Assembly (NCBI GenBank): GCA_014762755.1
Contig: JABURI010000258.1
Span: 1 to 50,255, forward strand
Source: Marinobacter sp.
Lineage (GTDB): Bacteria > Pseudomonadota > Gammaproteobacteria > Pseudomonadales > Oleiphilaceae
Length of the DNA: 50,255 nt
Direction: 5' to 3'
The translations under genes and the position numbers were made by a program. Position 1 is the stretch's first letter. Every line of letters starts with the position of its first letter. Positions 5,456 to 15,344 of the stretch are shown here, one piece after another. The notes beneath the pieces were generated by a model, which worked only from the letters and a program-made list of their open reading frames with translations, was not told the DNA's origin and did not search any database.

Positions 5456-6019
5456 CTAGATGAACGTGTGGCCCGCCACTAATTCGCACAGTCCGGATTG
5501 ATTGGGCACGTAATTGTGTTCGCGCCAGTGCCTGGCGCCTTCAAGGCCACCTCGGAAGCAGGCAAGGTAGATGCCGCTGGCCGTCAGTTCCTCGATGACG
5601 GAGAGGGCGTCCGCGCGGGAGATTCCGATCTTACGGTTGATGATGTGTGCAACCAGACCCGCGAGAGTTCCGGAGTGCCGGTCGGATTGGCTGCACAGGG
5701 CACAACCGGCACCATAGAGCCAGGCCGTCGCGCAGGAGCCTACGATGGCTGCCATTTCCGGCCCGTTCAATCCTTTTTTCCGGCACTCCCGCTCCTGCAG
5801 GGCAGCCAGGATGTGAAGCTGGGTAAAAAGTTCGGTGTGGTATCGGCTGTTCGAAGCCTTGGCCGCTCCGGGGGCGTTGTTTGCAGGAGACCCGGTTAGT
5901 TCATCACCGGCACCCTCGACCAGAAAACCTTCCCGTGACACCCGGAACATTTGAACCCCGAGCAAGAGCAAAAGCGCAAACAAACCCGCCTGCGTGAACG
6001 GCACCAGCCAATACGACAT
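5456..6019 (-). CDS. hypothetical membrane-associated protein
   Basis: Likely start MSYWLVPFTQAGLFALLLLLGVQMF within ORF 5456..6091; no family recognised. Confidence 0.55.
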   Translation of the reverse strand: MSYWLVPFTQAGLFALLLLLGVQMFRVSREGFLVEGAGDELTGSPANNAPGAAKASNSRYHTELFTQLHILAALQERECRKKGLNGPEMAAIVGSCATAWLYGAGCALCSQSDRHSGTLAGLVAHIINRKIGISRADALSVIEELTASGIYLACFRGGLEGARHWREHNYVPNQSGLCELVAGHTFI

Positions 6020-6158
6020 ATTCTCGACCACCCTGATTGATCTCCCTGAACGAAACGATTGTAACAATCTGTAACGACCGAGAACTGCCAACGGTTCAGC
6101 AATTTATCGCGGGAAGGACCACCGGGTTACCAACTTGTGACGCTGGTCTCAGGCGGCG

Positions 6159-7625
6159 TCAGCAGGTGGGCATGGTCTGGAGGGCAAGCTTGCGGCGGAT
6201 ATAACGCCCGAGGGCATCGACCCCGATGTTGAGCAGTGCCGTAATCAGGATAAGCACCATGGCGCGGTCGAACCGGATGTTCTGGATGGCACTGTCCACG
6301 TAGAAGCCAAGGGTGTAGATACCGAGGATACCCAGGATGGCGGTTTCCCGCATGATGATTTCCCAGCGGTAGAACAGGAAGGCCAGGAACGAACGGTACA
6401 CCCGGGGAACCAGTTCCCAGGTGTAGCGATTGAAACCGGTGGTTGCGTCCGGGCGCAGCCGCAGGGTGTTGGTCTGACGGCCGATCAGGTGACCGATGAT
6501 GCCGCCGTTGTGCAGCGCCAGGGCGACCACCGCCGGCAGCATTGAGGGGCCCCAGAGCTGCAGCAGTATGTACGCCAGAATGTATTCCGGGGTTGAACGG
6601 GCAATCACCAGAAACACGTGGCCGCTGGTTCGGCGCACCGGTCCGCCGAAATGATTGGAAATCAACGGGAACGCCAGCAATGCCAGGATCCCGGTGGCCA
6701 CCAGGGCAATCTGTGTGAGCAGGACCGTGTTCCAGATCCCCGGTAGGGCTTCGTTTACCATCAGGTCATTGAGCCAGGGCACCAGCCCTGCGATACCCTC
6801 GCCACTGCGAAGAGGTTCAGGGACTATGTCTTCAGTGAAGAAGCGCTCTACGTTGCCCCAGACAATTGGCAGGCCCTCACCCAGAAAGAACGGTGCCGCC
6901 AGGATGTAGACAGGGAGCAGTTTCGGGCGGACCCATAGCGGAATCGTAGCGATAAGGACATAGAACAGGATCAGCATCGCCCCGGCGTCGGAGTACAGCC
7001 CCTGGGAAAAGGAAGACTCCAGGTAGAAACCCAGGGTGGGCAGGCCGACGAAGCCAAGGATGGCGCTGGAGCGCAGGCCACACTCCAGGCGATAGGCGGT
7101 ATAGGTCCGCAGCTGCTCCCAGCAATCCGGTATTCGGGCGTAAAGGAACGCCGCAACCATGCCAGTGCCCGGCGGTAGCAGGCGTCTTGGCTCAGGGTCG
7201 GCTTCTTCCAGGATCTCCGAGTAGACCTTGGCAAAAATACCGGAATAGGGAATGGCGATAGCCAGAACCCCGGTCAGCGGGTGAAACCCGAAGAACTGCA
7301 AAAAGATCAGTGCCCAGAACAGCTCATGGATGGCCCGGATAAAGGCGCAGAAAACGCGCACCGGGAGGAATCGGTAGACCAGCGCCAGCAGGAAACCAAA
7401 GAAACTGCCCAGTGCCACCCCCACGAAGGCAAACGCTACGGTACGCAGCAGGGCGGTCAGCAATCCCTCGGAGCTGAAGAAGTTGGGCGTGACCACGCCC
7501 AGGAAGAAATTACCCAGATCCCGCCAGGGATTGGAGGCGGTGATGGCGATATCCGCAAACAGCAGTCCGAGGGTCGCGACAGCGACAAATATCAGGCTTG
7601 CTCTGACCGTTGGATAGGAAAACAT
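6159..7625 (-). CDS. PhnE-like ABC permease with two tandem permease domains (putative selenium oxyanion/phosphonate-type transporter)
   Basis: Two binding-protein-dependent permease modules: ...AIHELFWALIFLQFFGFHPLTGVLAIAIPYSGIFAKVYSEILEE... and ...IARSTPEYILAYILLQLWGPSMLPAVVALALHNGGIIGHLIGR...; start set to MFSYPTVRASL. Confidence 0.85.
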   Translation of the reverse strand: MFSYPTVRASLIFVAVATLGLLFADIAITASNPWRDLGNFFLGVVTPNFFSSEGLLTALLRTVAFAFVGVALGSFFGFLLALVYRFLPVRVFCAFIRAIHELFWALIFLQFFGFHPLTGVLAIAIPYSGIFAKVYSEILEEADPEPRRLLPPGTGMVAAFLYARIPDCWEQLRTYTAYRLECGLRSSAILGFVGLPTLGFYLESSFSQGLYSDAGAMLILFYVLIATIPLWVRPKLLPVYILAAPFFLGEGLPIVWGNVERFFTEDIVPEPLRSGEGIAGLVPWLNDLMVNEALPGIWNTVLLTQIALVATGILALLAFPLISNHFGGPVRRTSGHVFLVIARSTPEYILAYILLQLWGPSMLPAVVALALHNGGIIGHLIGRQTNTLRLRPDATTGFNRYTWELVPRVYRSFLAFLFYRWEIIMRETAILGILGIYTLGFYVDSAIQNIRFDRAMVLILITALLNIGVDALGRYIRRKLALQTMPTC

Positions 7626-7641
7626 GGATCCGCCGAAAACC

Positions 7642-8292
7642 TCAGTACAGGGACATGATGTCGGAGGGGGCCAGGCGGTCGCTGGGTTCGTCCAGTTCCA
7701 CCAGGCCATCCTGGATGCCGACAATCCGGTTGCAGTACTGCAGTGCCAGTTCTACATCGTGCAGCGCAATCACGCTGGTGGCAAACCGGTCCCTGAGCAG
7801 CGCCATGACCTGATGCGCCCGGGGCCCGTCCAGTGCCGACACGGGTTCGTCTGCCAGCAGCAGGCTCTCGTTCCGGTAGATCGCCCGTGCAATGGCAACC
7901 CGTTGGCGTTGGCCGCCGGACAGGGACGCCGTAGGAATCCAGAGCTTCTCGGCCATGCCCAGATCGTTGAGCAGGCTTTTCACCGCCGCCCGATCAGCGG
8001 CGAACGGCCGGATCAGCGTGAGGGTGTTATACCAGGTGGGATGTTTGTCCAACTGGCCCATGAATACGTTATGGAAAACGGGCAGGGCGTTGACCAGGCC
8101 CAGTTCCTGGGGAACCAGCGAGGAATTGCGGCCCACCTGTTCATGGATCAGACGAATCAGCGTGGATTTGCCCGCGCCACTCTTACCGACGAGAGCAACC
8201 TTTTCGCCTTCCCGGACACGAAGGGAGAGCGGCCCAAGGACGCGCTCTCCCCCGAATGAGGCCTTGAGGCCCGAGAGATCAAATCCGGACAT
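7642..8292 (-). CDS. PhnC-like ABC transporter ATP-binding protein
   Basis: Walker A GKSGAGKST, LSGGQRQRVAIARA, LLADEPVSALDG. Confidence 0.92.
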   Translation of the reverse strand: MSGFDLSGLKASFGGERVLGPLSLRVREGEKVALVGKSGAGKSTLIRLIHEQVGRNSSLVPQELGLVNALPVFHNVFMGQLDKHPTWYNTLTLIRPFAADRAAVKSLLNDLGMAEKLWIPTASLSGGQRQRVAIARAIYRNESLLLADEPVSALDGPRAHQVMALLRDRFATSVIALHDVELALQYCNRIVGIQDGLVELDEPSDRLAPSDIMSLY

Positions 8293-9167
8293 TAATCAAG
8301 GATTCCGATCTCTTCAGCGGTCTTTTGAATAGGCTCATAGTCTTCGTTGGAAGCAGGAATGAAGCCGGAACGGGGGAAGCTTTCCAGCAGTTCCTTGTCA
8401 TCCAGGGCGAGCAGGGCTTCTTTGACCCTGGCCTTGAAGCCATCGCCGAAGCGCTCATTCACGTCGCCGCGAATGGTCCACTGGTAGTCTGGATAGGCTG
8501 GGGTTTCCCAGATCACCTGAACTGCGTTGGTATCGATGTTGCCGTTCTCCAGTTCTTTTTCCCACACCTGGAAGTTCAGGGCGCCCACTTCATAGGTACC
8601 GGCCTCAACCAGGCGCAGGGTGCGGGTGTGGTTGCCACTGAATCCGACCCGGCCGAAAAAATCTTCGGGGGCCTGATTGAACGTCTCGCGGATATGGAAT
8701 TCCGGCATCAGACGACCGGAGGTGGAGCCTTTGGAGCCAAAGGTGAAGGTCTTCCCCCGGAGCTGTTCTTCCAACTCGGCCAGTTCCTCGACAGGCTCGA
8801 TTCCGGTGCTGGTGTTGGCGATGAAGTAGGTCTGGAAGGCCTCGTCCTCAACGCCCTGGGCAATCGCCTCGGAGCCGGGTACCAGACGACGGGCCTGAAC
8901 GCCGGACAAACCACCGAACCAGGCCAGCTGAACCTGATTATTGCGGAAGGCGGAGACCGCCGCTGCGTAGGATTTTACCGGGATGTAGCGGACTTCAACA
9001 TCCAGTTGCTCCGAGAGGTAGTCGGCTACACCACGGAACCGCTCTACCAGCTTGGTCTCATCCTCATCGGGGATTGCCGTGAATACAAACGTCTCCGCGC
9101 TTACCGAGGCTGCCGTCATGAAAAGAAGGCTGGAAGCCACAAATTTCCGTATCAGATTCAAAGCCAT
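8292..9167 (-). CDS. PhnD/PtxB-family periplasmic binding protein (candidate putative selenate ABC transporter SBP branch)
   Basis: Signal peptide; FVFTAIPDEDETKLVERFRGVADYLSEQLDVEVRYIPVKSYAAAVSAFRNNQVQLAWFGGLSGVQAR; context with selD and a SenB-like gene. Confidence 0.85.
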   Translation of the reverse strand: MALNLIRKFVASSLLFMTAASVSAETFVFTAIPDEDETKLVERFRGVADYLSEQLDVEVRYIPVKSYAAAVSAFRNNQVQLAWFGGLSGVQARRLVPGSEAIAQGVEDEAFQTYFIANTSTGIEPVEELAELEEQLRGKTFTFGSKGSTSGRLMPEFHIRETFNQAPEDFFGRVGFSGNHTRTLRLVEAGTYEVGALNFQVWEKELENGNIDTNAVQVIWETPAYPDYQWTIRGDVNERFGDGFKARVKEALLALDDKELLESFPRSGFIPASNEDYEPIQKTAEEIGILD

Positions 9168-9310
9168 TTGAAATCCCTGTTTCGGTTGGTTTGGAGAGGT
9201 GCTCAGGATACCTTGATTTACGTTAACTCTGAACAGCTATACGATTGGCAGGTTTTATTGGCTCAGCCAAAAATTTCTTTCTTTCAGGTGATTATCAGCA
9301 ATTGCGACCG

Positions 9311-10291
9311 ATGAAAATAATAATGATTACTCCCGCTGCTCCCGGTTCACGGGCGGGCAATCGAGCCACAGCTGAACGCTGGCAAAGATTACTTGAAAAT
9401 GCCGGCCACCGGGTCGATGTGGTCACGGACTATCAGGGGGAGGCCTGCGATCTCTTTATCGCGTTGCATGCCTGGCGCAGCCACGATGCGGTAATGCGCT
9501 TCCGGGGCCTCTGGCCAGCTACACCGGTGATCGTGGTGCTGACCGGTACCGATATCTATCGCCACCAGGTCGAATTCCCCGAGCCAACTCTTGCCACCAT
9601 GGACGCCGCCGATGCCCTCATTGGCCTGCACGACCGGGTGGCTGGGGATATTCCCGGTCGATTTCGGGACAGGCTGATCACTCTCTACCAGTCCGCTGTG
9701 GCACCACAGCCTGTAACGGAGCAGCCGGGCGATACTTTCCGGGTTTGCGTGATCGGCCATCTGCGGGAGGAGAAGGATTCCCTGCGCGCGGCCCGGGCGG
9801 TGAGGCTTCTGCCTGACAAATCCCGTATCCAGGTGATTGCTGCCGGCAAGGCCCATAACGCCGAATGGCAGCGAATGGTCGAAGAAGAGGCCGTCGATAA
9901 TCCCCGTTTCCAGTGGCTCGGGCAACTGGACGAGCAGGGCACTCGGCAATTACTCACCGGCAGCCGGCTGATGGTCATCAGTTCCGTGATGGAAGGTGGT
10001 GCCAATGTGGTGTCCGAAGCCTGCCGCGCCGGCATTCCGATACTCGCCAGCGATATACCCGGCAATCGGGGCCTGCTGGGCGATGACTATCCGGGCTATT
10101 TCCCGGCGCGCAACGAACGGGCGCTGGCCGATCTGCTCCACAAAGCGGAAACCGACCCCGGGTTCCTGCAGGACCTCAAATCCCGGGTGAACCAACTCGC
10201 CGTACGATTTACGCCCGAACGGGAGCAGGCGAGCCTGGAACAGGCGCTGGCACTTGCCTGCCAACGCTGTTCCGAACGGAAGACGAGTTAG
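9311..10291 (+). CDS. SenB/TIGR04348-like glycosyltransferase (putative selenosugar synthase)
   Basis: MKIIMITPAAPGSRAGNRATAERWQRLLENAGHRVDV..., GT-B-like C-terminus SSVMEGGANVVSEACRAGIPILASDIPGNRGLLGDDYPGYFP; convergent with selD. Confidence 0.75.
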   Translation: MKIIMITPAAPGSRAGNRATAERWQRLLENAGHRVDVVTDYQGEACDLFIALHAWRSHDAVMRFRGLWPATPVIVVLTGTDIYRHQVEFPEPTLATMDAADALIGLHDRVAGDIPGRFRDRLITLYQSAVAPQPVTEQPGDTFRVCVIGHLREEKDSLRAARAVRLLPDKSRIQVIAAGKAHNAEWQRMVEEEAVDNPRFQWLGQLDEQGTRQLLTGSRLMVISSVMEGGANVVSEACRAGIPILASDIPGNRGLLGDDYPGYFPARNERALADLLHKAETDPGFLQDLKSRVNQLAVRFTPEREQASLEQALALACQRCSERKTS

Positions 10292-12564
10292 TCCCGGAGA
10301 CTGATCGGTTCGATGGGCCCGGATTCGTCCTGGGGCAGAACCCGGCCAATAATCGCGGTGTGCGGATAGCCAAGCGCCTTCAACTCCCGGACACAGGCTT
10401 CCGCCTGGTCAGCGGCAACGCTGGCAAGTAATCCGCCGGCGGTCTGGGGGTCGAAGATCAGCGGGTAGCGGGGATGATTCACCCATTTCTCCTGGTCCCG
10501 GATGCCACGCCGCAAACGAATGTTGGCCGGCTGAAGGGAGCTAAGAATGCCCGCGGCCGCGGTCTCTTCCGCACCCGGCAGTACCGGAATGGCTGCAAGG
10601 TCCAGCTCCGCGTCCACGCCGGAGGGGCGGGTCATTTCCACCAGATGGCCCAGCAAACCGAAACCGGTGACATCCGTGCAGGCCCGTGACCCGTGGCGCC
10701 GCAAACACTCGGCACCGAGCTTGTTGGAATGGATCATGGAGGCGAGGGCGGAATCGATCCAGCGACCCTTGGCGGCAAGCCGGGCATGGGCGGCAAACAG
10801 GGTGCCGGTGCCGATCGGCTTGGTCAGGATCAGCACATCGCCGGCCTTGAGGCCGCCTTTGCTCATGACCTCCTCGGGATCAATCAGGCCATTGACCGCG
10901 AACCCAAGGGCGAGCTCCTTGCCTTCCCCGGTATGGCCCCCGACCAGCGCGCAGCCGGCTTCATTCAGGACCTCCACGGCACCGGACATCATCTGGTAGA
11001 CAACGTCCTCCACCTTGGACTCGATGCCGTAGGGCACGGTTGCCACGGCTGTCGCACTCTGGGCTTCTGCCCCCATGGCAAATACATCGCCCAGGCTGTG
11101 GTTGGCCGCGACCTTTCCGAACACATAGGGGTCGTCGATAAACGCCCGGAAGAAGTCGACGGTATGGACTACGGCTTTGCCCGGCGGTACCCGCAAAACG
11201 GCGGCATCATCCGGGGCGTGCAGGCCGATGATGATATCGTCCCGCTCGATAGGCTTGAGTTCATTCAGGGCGCGGGAGAGAACCGTGCTGCCCACCTTGG
11301 CACCGCAACCACCACAGCGCATGGCCACCGCGGAAATGGCCTGGGAGGCCTCCTCGGCGCTCTGGGCCGCTGCGGTATCCGGCAGTTTTGCGGATTCCTC
11401 CATGGCCGGCAGATCGCTGAACTTACGCATGAAGCGCCGGTCGATCCAGTCTTTCCAGCGCCACACCAGGCGGCCGTGGAATTCCACATCTCCCCGAGAG
11501 GCGACGGCGTACTTGTCGCCGGTGCTGATCAGGGCGAGCCATTTCTTCTGGGGATAGAAGTTGCGGGTCTCTTTGCCTGTGGCCAGGCGTTTTAGGTTGT
11601 CTGCCAGAGGCGGGCCCTGGCGCACCGCAAACACGCCCGCCTTTTCCCGCGGATGGTTGACCACGTTGGCGATATCGCCGGCGGCAAAAATGCTGTAGTC
11701 GTTCTCGGTTTGCAGGGTATCGCGTACCCGGATAAACCGCCCCTCATCGAGAGCCAGGCCGGTATCCTCCAGCCAGGCCGGGCCGCCGGCCCGGGTTACC
11801 CAGAGCACTTCATCCACTTGCAGGGTTTCGCCCGAATCCGAGGTCAGCAGTCCGGACTCGACCCGGGACACCGGTGACCCAAGGTGGACCTTCACTCCGC
11901 GTTCCGCCAGCTTTCGTTCAAACACCGAGCGAACTTTGGGGTTGTGGGTGGGAAGAATCCGGTCGGCGGCATCGAAAAGATGGAAATGCAGCTGATCCGG
12001 ATCCTTGCCGCGCTGGGTCAGTTCCTTCTTCAGCCGGAATTGCATGGCCAGGGTCAGTTCCACACCACCGGCTCCCGCTCCCACCACCGCCAGGGTCAAC
12101 GGACCCTCGTGGTTTTCGATGCGGGTAAGCAATGATAGCCAGCGCTGGTTGAAGCCATTGATTGGCTTGACCGGCACGGCGTGTTCCTCGGCACCCTCGA
12201 CTTCGCTCACCCTGGGGGAGGAGCCGATATTGATGGAGAGAATGTCGTAGGGCACGTTCGGCCGGTTGCGGCACCGGATACGCTTGTTGGTGCGGTCGAT
12301 ACCGATGGCTTCGTCACGGTAGAAGCGAGCCCCGGCGTATTCCGCCAGCCGGCTCAGATCGATATGAACGTCATCGTAGCTGTAATGGCCGGCCACATAG
12401 CCAGGCAACATTCCGGAGTAGGGGGTGTGGGTATCGCGGCAGATGAGGGTCAGGCGCACGCCGGGGACCGGGTTCATTGCGAACTGCTTGAGGACCCCGA
12501 CGTGGCTGTGCCCGCCGCCAACCAGGACTATGTCCCGTAAAACAGGCTGGTCAGGCGTTTGCAT
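10288..12564 (-). CDS. selD: fused pyridine nucleotide-disulfide oxidoreductase / selenide, water dikinase
   Basis: N-terminal FAD-binding domain (DIVLVGGGHSHVGVLKQF) and C-terminal SelD (MRCGGCGAKVGSTVL; DDAAVLRVPPGKAVVHTVDFF; VGGHTGEGKELALGF). Confidence 0.93.
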   Translation of the reverse strand: MQTPDQPVLRDIVLVGGGHSHVGVLKQFAMNPVPGVRLTLICRDTHTPYSGMLPGYVAGHYSYDDVHIDLSRLAEYAGARFYRDEAIGIDRTNKRIRCRNRPNVPYDILSINIGSSPRVSEVEGAEEHAVPVKPINGFNQRWLSLLTRIENHEGPLTLAVVGAGAGGVELTLAMQFRLKKELTQRGKDPDQLHFHLFDAADRILPTHNPKVRSVFERKLAERGVKVHLGSPVSRVESGLLTSDSGETLQVDEVLWVTRAGGPAWLEDTGLALDEGRFIRVRDTLQTENDYSIFAAGDIANVVNHPREKAGVFAVRQGPPLADNLKRLATGKETRNFYPQKKWLALISTGDKYAVASRGDVEFHGRLVWRWKDWIDRRFMRKFSDLPAMEESAKLPDTAAAQSAEEASQAISAVAMRCGGCGAKVGSTVLSRALNELKPIERDDIIIGLHAPDDAAVLRVPPGKAVVHTVDFFRAFIDDPYVFGKVAANHSLGDVFAMGAEAQSATAVATVPYGIESKVEDVVYQMMSGAVEVLNEAGCALVGGHTGEGKELALGFAVNGLIDPEEVMSKGGLKAGDVLILTKPIGTGTLFAAHARLAAKGRWIDSALASMIHSNKLGAECLRRHGSRACTDVTGFGLLGHLVEMTRPSGVDAELDLAAIPVLPGAEETAAAGILSSLQPANIRLRRGIRDQEKWVNHPRYPLIFDPQTAGGLLASVAADQAEACVRELKALGYPHTAIIGRVLPQDESGPIEPISLRD

Positions 12565-13814: not shown

Positions 13815-15344
13815 TCAGTCCGACGATTTCACCCGCACCTCGTACATATCTTCCCGGCGGTCCTTCAGGTTGTTTACCGACCCTTCATTACGAACCAGTG
13901 TCAGCTTTTCCAGGTCCATGTCCGAGAACATGATCATCTCGGTGTTGGGCGTGGTTTCGGCCATCACCGCATCGTGCGGGAAGGCAAAATCCGACGGTGA
14001 GAACACCGACGACTGAGCGTACTGGACGTCCAGGTTTTCCACCTTCGGCAGGTTGCCGACACTCCCGGTGATTACGACGTAGCATTCGTTTTCGATTGCC
14101 CGGGCCTGGGCACAGTGACGAACCCGGAGGTAGCCGTTCTTGGTGTCGGTCCAGAAGGGGACGCAGATGATGTCAACGTCCTGGGCGGCTGCAATCCGGC
14201 CCAGTTCCGGGAATTCGATGTCATAGCAGATCAGGATGGCCACCCGACCGGCATCGGTTTCGAACACCTGGAAGGTATCGCCCCCTTCGATCACCCAGTC
14301 GCGACGCTCGTGCGGGGTGATATGGATTTTGCGCTGCTCATCGACCCGACCGTCACGGTGGCACAGATAGGAAACGTTGAACAGGCGGTCGTTTTCCAGC
14401 AGGGGCATGGAGCCGGTGATGATATTGATGTTGTAGCTGACCGCCATTTCCGACATCTCATCCCGGAACTGTTCGGTAAAACCGGCCAGGAAGCGGATGG
14501 CCCGGGTCTGGTCCATCTGGTCGGTCAGACCCATCAGGGGCGCGTTGAAGAACTCCGGGAACAGGGCGAAGTCGCTCTTGTAGTCGGAGAGGGCGTCCAC
14601 GAAGTATTCCACCTGCTTGAGCACTTCATCCACGGAGGTGAATTCCCGCATCTGCCATTGGACTGCCCCCAGACGGACCTGGGTCTTGCGCACATTCAGC
14701 ACCGGCGAGGGCGGCGTATAGAGAATGTTCCGCCATTCCAGAAGGGTGGCATAGCCCATGGATTTCTCGTCTTCCGGCAGGTACTTGTGCATCAGCCGGG
14801 TGACCTGGAAATCGTTGGAGAGCTGGAAGCTCAGGATCGGATCGTAGATTTCCTTGCGATCCACGCGCTGGATATATTCAGCAGGGGTGTACTGGTCCTT
14901 GTACTTGTAGTAGCTCGGGATGCGGCCGCCGGCCAGGATGGCCCGCAGATTCATGGAGCGGCACAACTCCTTGCGCGCCTCATACAGGCGCCGGCCCAGG
15001 CGATAGCCGCGGTATTCCGGGTGGATGAACACATCCAGGCCATACAGGGAATCACCGTTGGCATTGTGCCAGATCTTCTCGTTACGCAGGATCAGGTCGT
15101 CGTAGGTATGCGGGTTGCTGAAGCGTTCGTACTTCACGCAAACCGTCAGCGCCACGGCAACCAGCTGGCCGTTGTCCTCAATACAGATCTGCCCGTCGGG
15201 GAACTGTTCCACCAATGCCTTGATTGTCTCTTTGGGCCAGGCTCCGCCAATGTCGTCGTAGACCAGGTCCATCAGTTCCTGAAGCTGTTCGTAGTCGTCC
15301 AGCGTCAGGTTGCGGAGATTGAGATGCAGCTCATCATGGGGCAT
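13815..15344 (-). CDS. bifunctional GNAT acetyltransferase / carbon-nitrogen hydrolase
   Basis: N-terminal GNAT (LDVFIHPEYRGYRLGRRLYEARKEL) and C-terminal nitrilase (FALFPEFFNAPLMG; GRVAILICYDIEFPELGR). Confidence 0.92.
   Translation of the reverse strand: MPHDELHLNLRNLTLDDYEQLQELMDLVYDDIGGAWPKETIKALVEQFPDGQICIEDNGQLVAVALTVCVKYERFSNPHTYDDLILRNEKIWHNANGDSLYGLDVFIHPEYRGYRLGRRLYEARKELCRSMNLRAILAGGRIPSYYKYKDQYTPAEYIQRVDRKEIYDPILSFQLSNDFQVTRLMHKYLPEDEKSMGYATLLEWRNILYTPPSPVLNVRKTQVRLGAVQWQMREFTSVDEVLKQVEYFVDALSDYKSDFALFPEFFNAPLMGLTDQMDQTRAIRFLAGFTEQFRDEMSEMAVSYNINIITGSMPLLENDRLFNVSYLCHRDGRVDEQRKIHITPHERRDWVIEGGDTFQVFETDAGRVAILICYDIEFPELGRIAAAQDVDIICVPFWTDTKNGYLRVRHCAQARAIENECYVVITGSVGNLPKVENLDVQYAQSSVFSPSDFAFPHDAVMAETTPNTEMIMFSDMDLEKLTLVRNEGSVNNLKDRREDMYEVRVKSSD

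Follow-up and report, generated by a model that had tools for sequence, protein, structure and literature searches.

A locus in a Marinobacter genome (G000) brings together a PhnCDE-like transporter, a selenosugar synthase (SenB) and a selenophosphate synthetase (SelD). No SenA-like gene was found within the window, by which is meant the whole stretch of 50,255 nucleotides analysed, one whole contig (C99) of that genome; its absence had already been remarked in the initial annotation. The questions raised are in which pathway such a lone selenosugar synthase would work and what the transporter beside it would carry. In our reading, to which a probability of about 87% is given, the window would hold the selenium-supply and selenosugar half of the ovoselenol pathway, with the remaining enzymes, OvsA and a methyltransferase, encoded elsewhere in the genome. 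Ovoselenol is a known compound, reportedly described in 2024 by Kayrouz et al. The pathway is known, and Marinobacter is a member with scattered genes. The analysis places it in most Marinobacter genomes searched; it is missed when gene clusters alone are read.

Gene content and order at the senB locus

Profile models and gene order confirmed the annotated set of PhnCDE-like transporter, SenB-like gene and SelD at 6159-12564. The five genes are real and stand in the order given initially (Table 1), with SelD as an oxidoreductase/SelD fusion. As annotated, senB converges on the selD fusion, the two ends overlapping by 4 bases, and lies beside the gene of a PhnD/PtxB-like substrate-binding protein (SBP), from which it diverges across 143 bases. 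A promoter scan of this intergenic region was no better than shuffles. The transporter operon reads leftwards as SBP, ATPase and permease; the permease start was set at the Met common to the 488-aa orthologues, while the longest ORF extends to 7724. Another 21 Marinobacter contigs carry orthologues in the same order (7 of the 21 without the selD fusion, 1 without a scoring SBP), and since the order recurs in this way, the five-gene arrangement is not due to chance.

Table 1. Features of the senB locus in the window and the methyltransferase gene on another contig of the same genome
Feature	Position	Strand	Evidence
ABC transporter permease, 488 aa	6159..7625	-	two PhnE-like stretches in one chain; TIGR01097 203 bits (cut-off 217)
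ABC transporter ATPase, PhnC-like, 216 aa	7642..8292	-	PF00005; nearest NCBIfam model TIGR02315 (PhnC) 159 bits, below cut-off 266
Periplasmic substrate-binding protein (SBP), TIGR04553 family	8292..9167	-	426 bits (cut-off 250)
Divergent intergenic region, transporter operon / senB	9168..9310	.	143 bases between both start codons
senB, selenosugar synthase	9311..10291	+	TIGR04348 402 bits (cut-off 300)
Oxidoreductase-SelD fusion (selenophosphate synthetase)	10288..12564	-	TIGR03169 514 bits (cut-off 310); TIGR00476 302 bits (cut-off 125)
OvsM/OvoM-type methyltransferase, free-standing, relative of the OvoA C-terminal methyltransferase	G000:C208:16715-17473		TIGR04345 328 bits (cut-off 170)

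Two further genes flank the locus. Immediately after the permease gene, in the same orientation, lies a gene for a small protein without Pfam or NCBIfam match (5456-6091); ORFs of about 205 aa occupy the equivalent place in G005 (L148) and G020 (L146), a match of position only and not of homology. Near selD, a GNAT-nitrilase fusion (PF00583 and PF00795) was found at 13815-15344, with the same kind of ORF in the same place in G005, G012 and G020.

The TIGR04348 profile, suggested initially as a check on the glycosyltransferase, assigned it to the SenB family of selenosugar synthases, and the protein scores 158 bits against the solved Variovorax SenB. The genus was read from the nearest SenB orthologues: one from a Marinobacter sp. 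assembly is 92% identical, and those of M. pelagius share 83-85%. In the alignment, the catalytic K158 and the sugar-binding N20, T23 and E231 are retained, together with E239, Q131 and R155; N20, T23, K158, E231 and E239 are important in Variovorax SenB (PMC10891094). From its family and key residues, the enzyme looks active. The motif EGGAHV is replaced by EGGANV (H235 to N), likewise in nearly all relatives. This change was considered as a mark of pairing with OvsA and was rejected: nearly every relative, including those beside SenA, carries N, so the residue is uninformative on the product. SenB-like genes were also observed in Planctomycetota, Thiobacillus and Akkermansiaceae, with no SenA, SelD or SBP matches in the flanks examined (L090, L092, L093, L096, L098, L099, L113, L125, L135-L138 and L140).

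The SelD part of the fusion has C420 and K423 where the solved SelD 3u0o has C17 and K20, and by family and catalytic residues this part also looks active. The model TIGR04369 (fusion_not_SelD) was rejected for the fusion, with 470 bits against a cut-off of 700. A second selD, free-standing and of the E. coli type, is present in G000 (G000:C257:3794-4855, L142). In G005 and G013 only the free-standing kind was found, the fusion being absent beside SenB in G005.

Selenophosphate probably also feeds SelU, yielding tRNA selenouridine. The initial annotation saw no SelU, which holds for the window but not for the genome, where selU/mnmH was found outside it (368 bits, cut-off 220); each of the 25 Marinobacter genomes in the first draw has SelU, SenB-less ones included. 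SelB had not been seen either, in agreement with the genus search, where all matches fell below the cut-off. The only SelB matches over it came from G027 and G037, members of other families, and selenocysteine use was rejected.

OvsA and the methyltransferase outside the window

A genome search for senA, proposed in the initial annotation, did return a candidate: the SenA model NF041186 gave one strong match in G000 (G000:C95:2240-3562, L035; 433 bits, cut-off 420), within a gene at G000:C95:2225-3568, on a contig other than the window. Taken by the name of the NCBI model, this distant SenA-family protein would use hercynine and the pathway would lead to selenoneine, a reading also favoured by the same kind of transporter and SenB accompanying a real SenA in G025 and other genera. 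However, compared with solved structures, the C95 protein scores 662 bits against OvsA (8u41), 172 against SenA and 189 against EgtB (4x8b). A tree built from 52 EgtB-family proteins groups the ten Marinobacter copies with 8u41 (support 100/100) and keeps them separate from the G025 SenA as well as from those EgtB copies that neighbour EgtD. The M/Q/A triad of OvsA 8u41 was found in 10/10 Marinobacter copies tested, whereas the solved SenA carries Y/N/F, the commonest triad among SenA-linked copies; over the aligned stretch, the differences between 8u41 and 8ux5 are M, Q and A in the former against Y, N and F in the latter. The three iron-binding histidines are kept in all OvsA and SenA copies compared. 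Judged by score, tree and residues, the C95 protein is an OvsA orthologue and not a SenA, and since it was the sole match over the cut-off, no true SenA was found in G000. NF041186 scores OvsA orthologues barely over its cut-off (430 bits for another one, L153:6741-8084), and OvsA in public genomes is therefore likely annotated as selenoneine synthase, one of two annotation traps met at this locus.

EgtD makes hercynine, the substrate of SenA. It was not found in G000, but as this assembly is 82% complete, absences there are weak and the argument is carried by the congeners. EgtD is absent from 17 of the 22 SenB-positive genus members, G000 included, and nearly all of the other 16 are assemblies of 99-100% completeness; where present, in five members, EgtD adjoins a different EgtB paralogue. 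Score, tree, residues and the missing EgtD together led to the rejection of selenoneine, which is considered highly improbable as the product. The initial suspicion that the product might not be selenoneine is in line with the OvsA orthologue and the missing EgtD.

The selenoneine (sen) cluster of Variovorax consists of senA-senB-senC (PMC10702425). Marinobacter shares with it SenB and SelD, the first two steps, but differs in that a true SenA and EgtD were not found in the genome and OvsA takes the place of SenA; a SenA-SenB-EgtD-SelD cluster with this type of transporter inside it was seen in G025 and Litchfieldella.

The methyltransferase on contig C208 (Table 1) is about equally close to the solved OvoM (249 bits) and OvsM (239 bits), while the one encoded directly after ovsA in G007 has OvsM as its best match (275 bits). 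In a passage of a 2026 review, OvsA is said to belong to ovoselenol (PMC13188914, citing Kayrouz et al. 2024). Structures are available for OvsA (PDB 8u41, 8u42 and 8ux5) and OvsM (PDB 9bxh, 9bxj and 9bxk), the PDB molecule names being 'selenoxide synthase OvsA' for 8u41 and '5-selenohistidine N-methyltransferase' for OvsM. In the 2024 work of Kayrouz and colleagues, OvsA reportedly acts on histidine, the selenium of the selenosugar being joined to the imidazole and the selenoxide breaking down to 5-selenohistidine. Histidine is taken as the OvsA substrate on this ground and from the PDB name of the partner OvsM.

Joint occurrence of SenB and OvsA

The Marinobacter genes for OvsA and the methyltransferase lie unlinked to senB, and no partner synthase for SenB was found in the contig or within 10 kb at the 21 other Marinobacter loci. 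Such isolation could be expected if the selenosugar made by SenB were the final product and served to store or detoxify selenium. In that case SenB should persist without OvsA, but the two were present or absent together in 34/34 Marinobacter genomes from two draws, with both in 30 and neither in four (G004, G012, G020 and G170). For genomes of the first draw with an unaligned copy, the presence of OvsA was taken from the score on the SenA model (about 419-443 bits). Exact agreement with four absences placed at random has a chance of about 2e-5, a figure made too optimistic by the relatedness of the genomes. In the SBP tree, the three placeable SenB-less genomes do not form one group, and the starred branches force at least two changes. 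On this joint presence and absence, the selenosugar as end product was rejected, and it is given very little probability.

Among 394 genomes of the order, 16/16 with OvsA also have SenB; one of them, G380, from another family, has OvsA, the methyltransferase and the SelD fusion in a row, with SenB and the same transporter about 15 kb further on. A methyltransferase of the family was found in all 30 Marinobacter genomes with SenB and OvsA; 29 have a free-standing copy, and in G272 the sole copy is part of an OvoA fusion. Among the SenB-less genomes, G012, G020 and G170 are without it and G004 has the OvoA fusion only. Two of these genomes, G012 and G020, lack SenB between the genes for the SelD fusion and the SBP, which follow one another in tandem at a distance of about 120 bases.

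From gene identities, residues and co-occurrence, all of them computed, we infer an order of steps with ovoselenol as the likely product. The PhnCDE-like transporter would import a small oxyanion, perhaps selenite, which would then be reduced to selenide. By family and catalytic residues, the SelD fusion would make selenophosphate, from which SenB, by family and residues, would move the selenium to a UDP-sugar, giving the selenosugar. OvsA, encoded on C95, would couple the selenosugar selenium to the imidazole of histidine, with the resulting selenoxide passing to 5-selenohistidine, as expected from orthology and from the chemistry given above. Finally, the methyltransferase encoded on C208 would, by its family, N-methylate 5-selenohistidine to ovoselenol. 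A selenosugar other than selenoneine, which had been put forward initially as a possible product, is not upheld; the OvsA orthologue and the OvsM/OvoM-type methyltransferase point to ovoselenol instead. With the known ovoselenol pathway the genome shares an OvsA orthologue, SenB, SelD and a member of the OvsM/OvoM/OvoA-C methyltransferase family. Marinobacter differs in having the genes over two or three loci, which explains why no partner enzyme is visible in the window, as well as in the PhnCDE-like transporter at senB and in a SelD that is an oxidoreductase fusion.

Cargo of the transporter

The initial annotation likened the transporter to the putative selenate branch, and the SBP does pass the 'putative selenate' model TIGR04553 well above its cut-off (Table 1), but the label itself is weak. 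Among solved SBPs the nearest is the phosphate-bound PhnD1 of Synechococcus (PDB 7s6g), which passes the same model with 334 bits against a cut-off of 250. TIGR04553 thus fails to separate selenium from phosphorus binders, the second annotation trap. The phosphate-contact residues of PhnD1 are Y44, S124, T125, S126, H156, D203 and Y204 (PMC10284923). All seven are retained in the window SBP, whose pocket is of the phosphate/phosphite kind, with N at D203 in some congeners. The transporter could accordingly import phosphate, phosphite or methylphosphonate, its place beside the selenium genes being incidental; with the closest solved relative, the seven kept contacts and the score of PhnD1 on its side, this is quite possible, although short of probable.

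The gene neighbours are set against it. In 25/26 first-draw genomes with an SBP gene over the cut-off, SenB or SelD is found no more than a few kb away from it, and transporters of the TIGR04553 type accompany SenA/SenB clusters in Pseudomonadota, Gemmatimonadota, Chloroflexota and Actinomycetota. In G035, a relative below the cut-off (201 bits) is adjacent to selU, the model matches being 104 bases apart. Moreover, G000 has a separate PhnCDE-like transporter beside a PtxD-like phosphite dehydrogenase (L155:5558-9124, G000:C272), the latter scoring 465 bits against the solved phosphite/phosphonate dehydrogenase. Since this PtxD-linked transporter is present, phosphite uptake is probably served elsewhere, and phosphite as the main role of the window transporter is less likely. 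Overall, the gene neighbours favour a selenium cargo, while the pocket residues do not decide.

The pyramidal XO3 shape of selenite resembles that of phosphite. A protonated oxyanion fits an acidic hydrogen-bond acceptor well, and at neutral pH selenite is protonated and selenate is not; selenite is for this reason the ligand guessed. From the gene neighbours we infer, tentatively and at somewhat under even odds, that the TIGR04553 transporter may be a dedicated importer of a selenium oxyanion, likeliest selenite; it would supply pathways that depend on SelD across four or more phyla, and the phnD1C1E1 transporter of marine picocyanobacteria would belong to the same kind. None of the papers searched names TIGR04553, and the 2026 review states that in prokaryotes a specific high-affinity system for selenium transport is yet to be identified (PMC13188914). 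Whether a PhnCDE-like transporter beside selenium genes is a dedicated selenium importer is thus raised as a testable question. It extends to the picocyanobacteria because Prochlorococcus and Synechococcus carry an oxidoreductase-extended SelD (PMC1273633) and selenium goes unmentioned in the main text of the PhnD1 study (PMC10284923). The picocyanobacterial PhnD1CE system shares with that of Marinobacter the SBP likeness, the contact residues and the TIGR04553 match described above, but it lies beside tesA and has been assigned to phosphate uptake (PMC10284923), whereas the Marinobacter transporter lies beside senB and selD.
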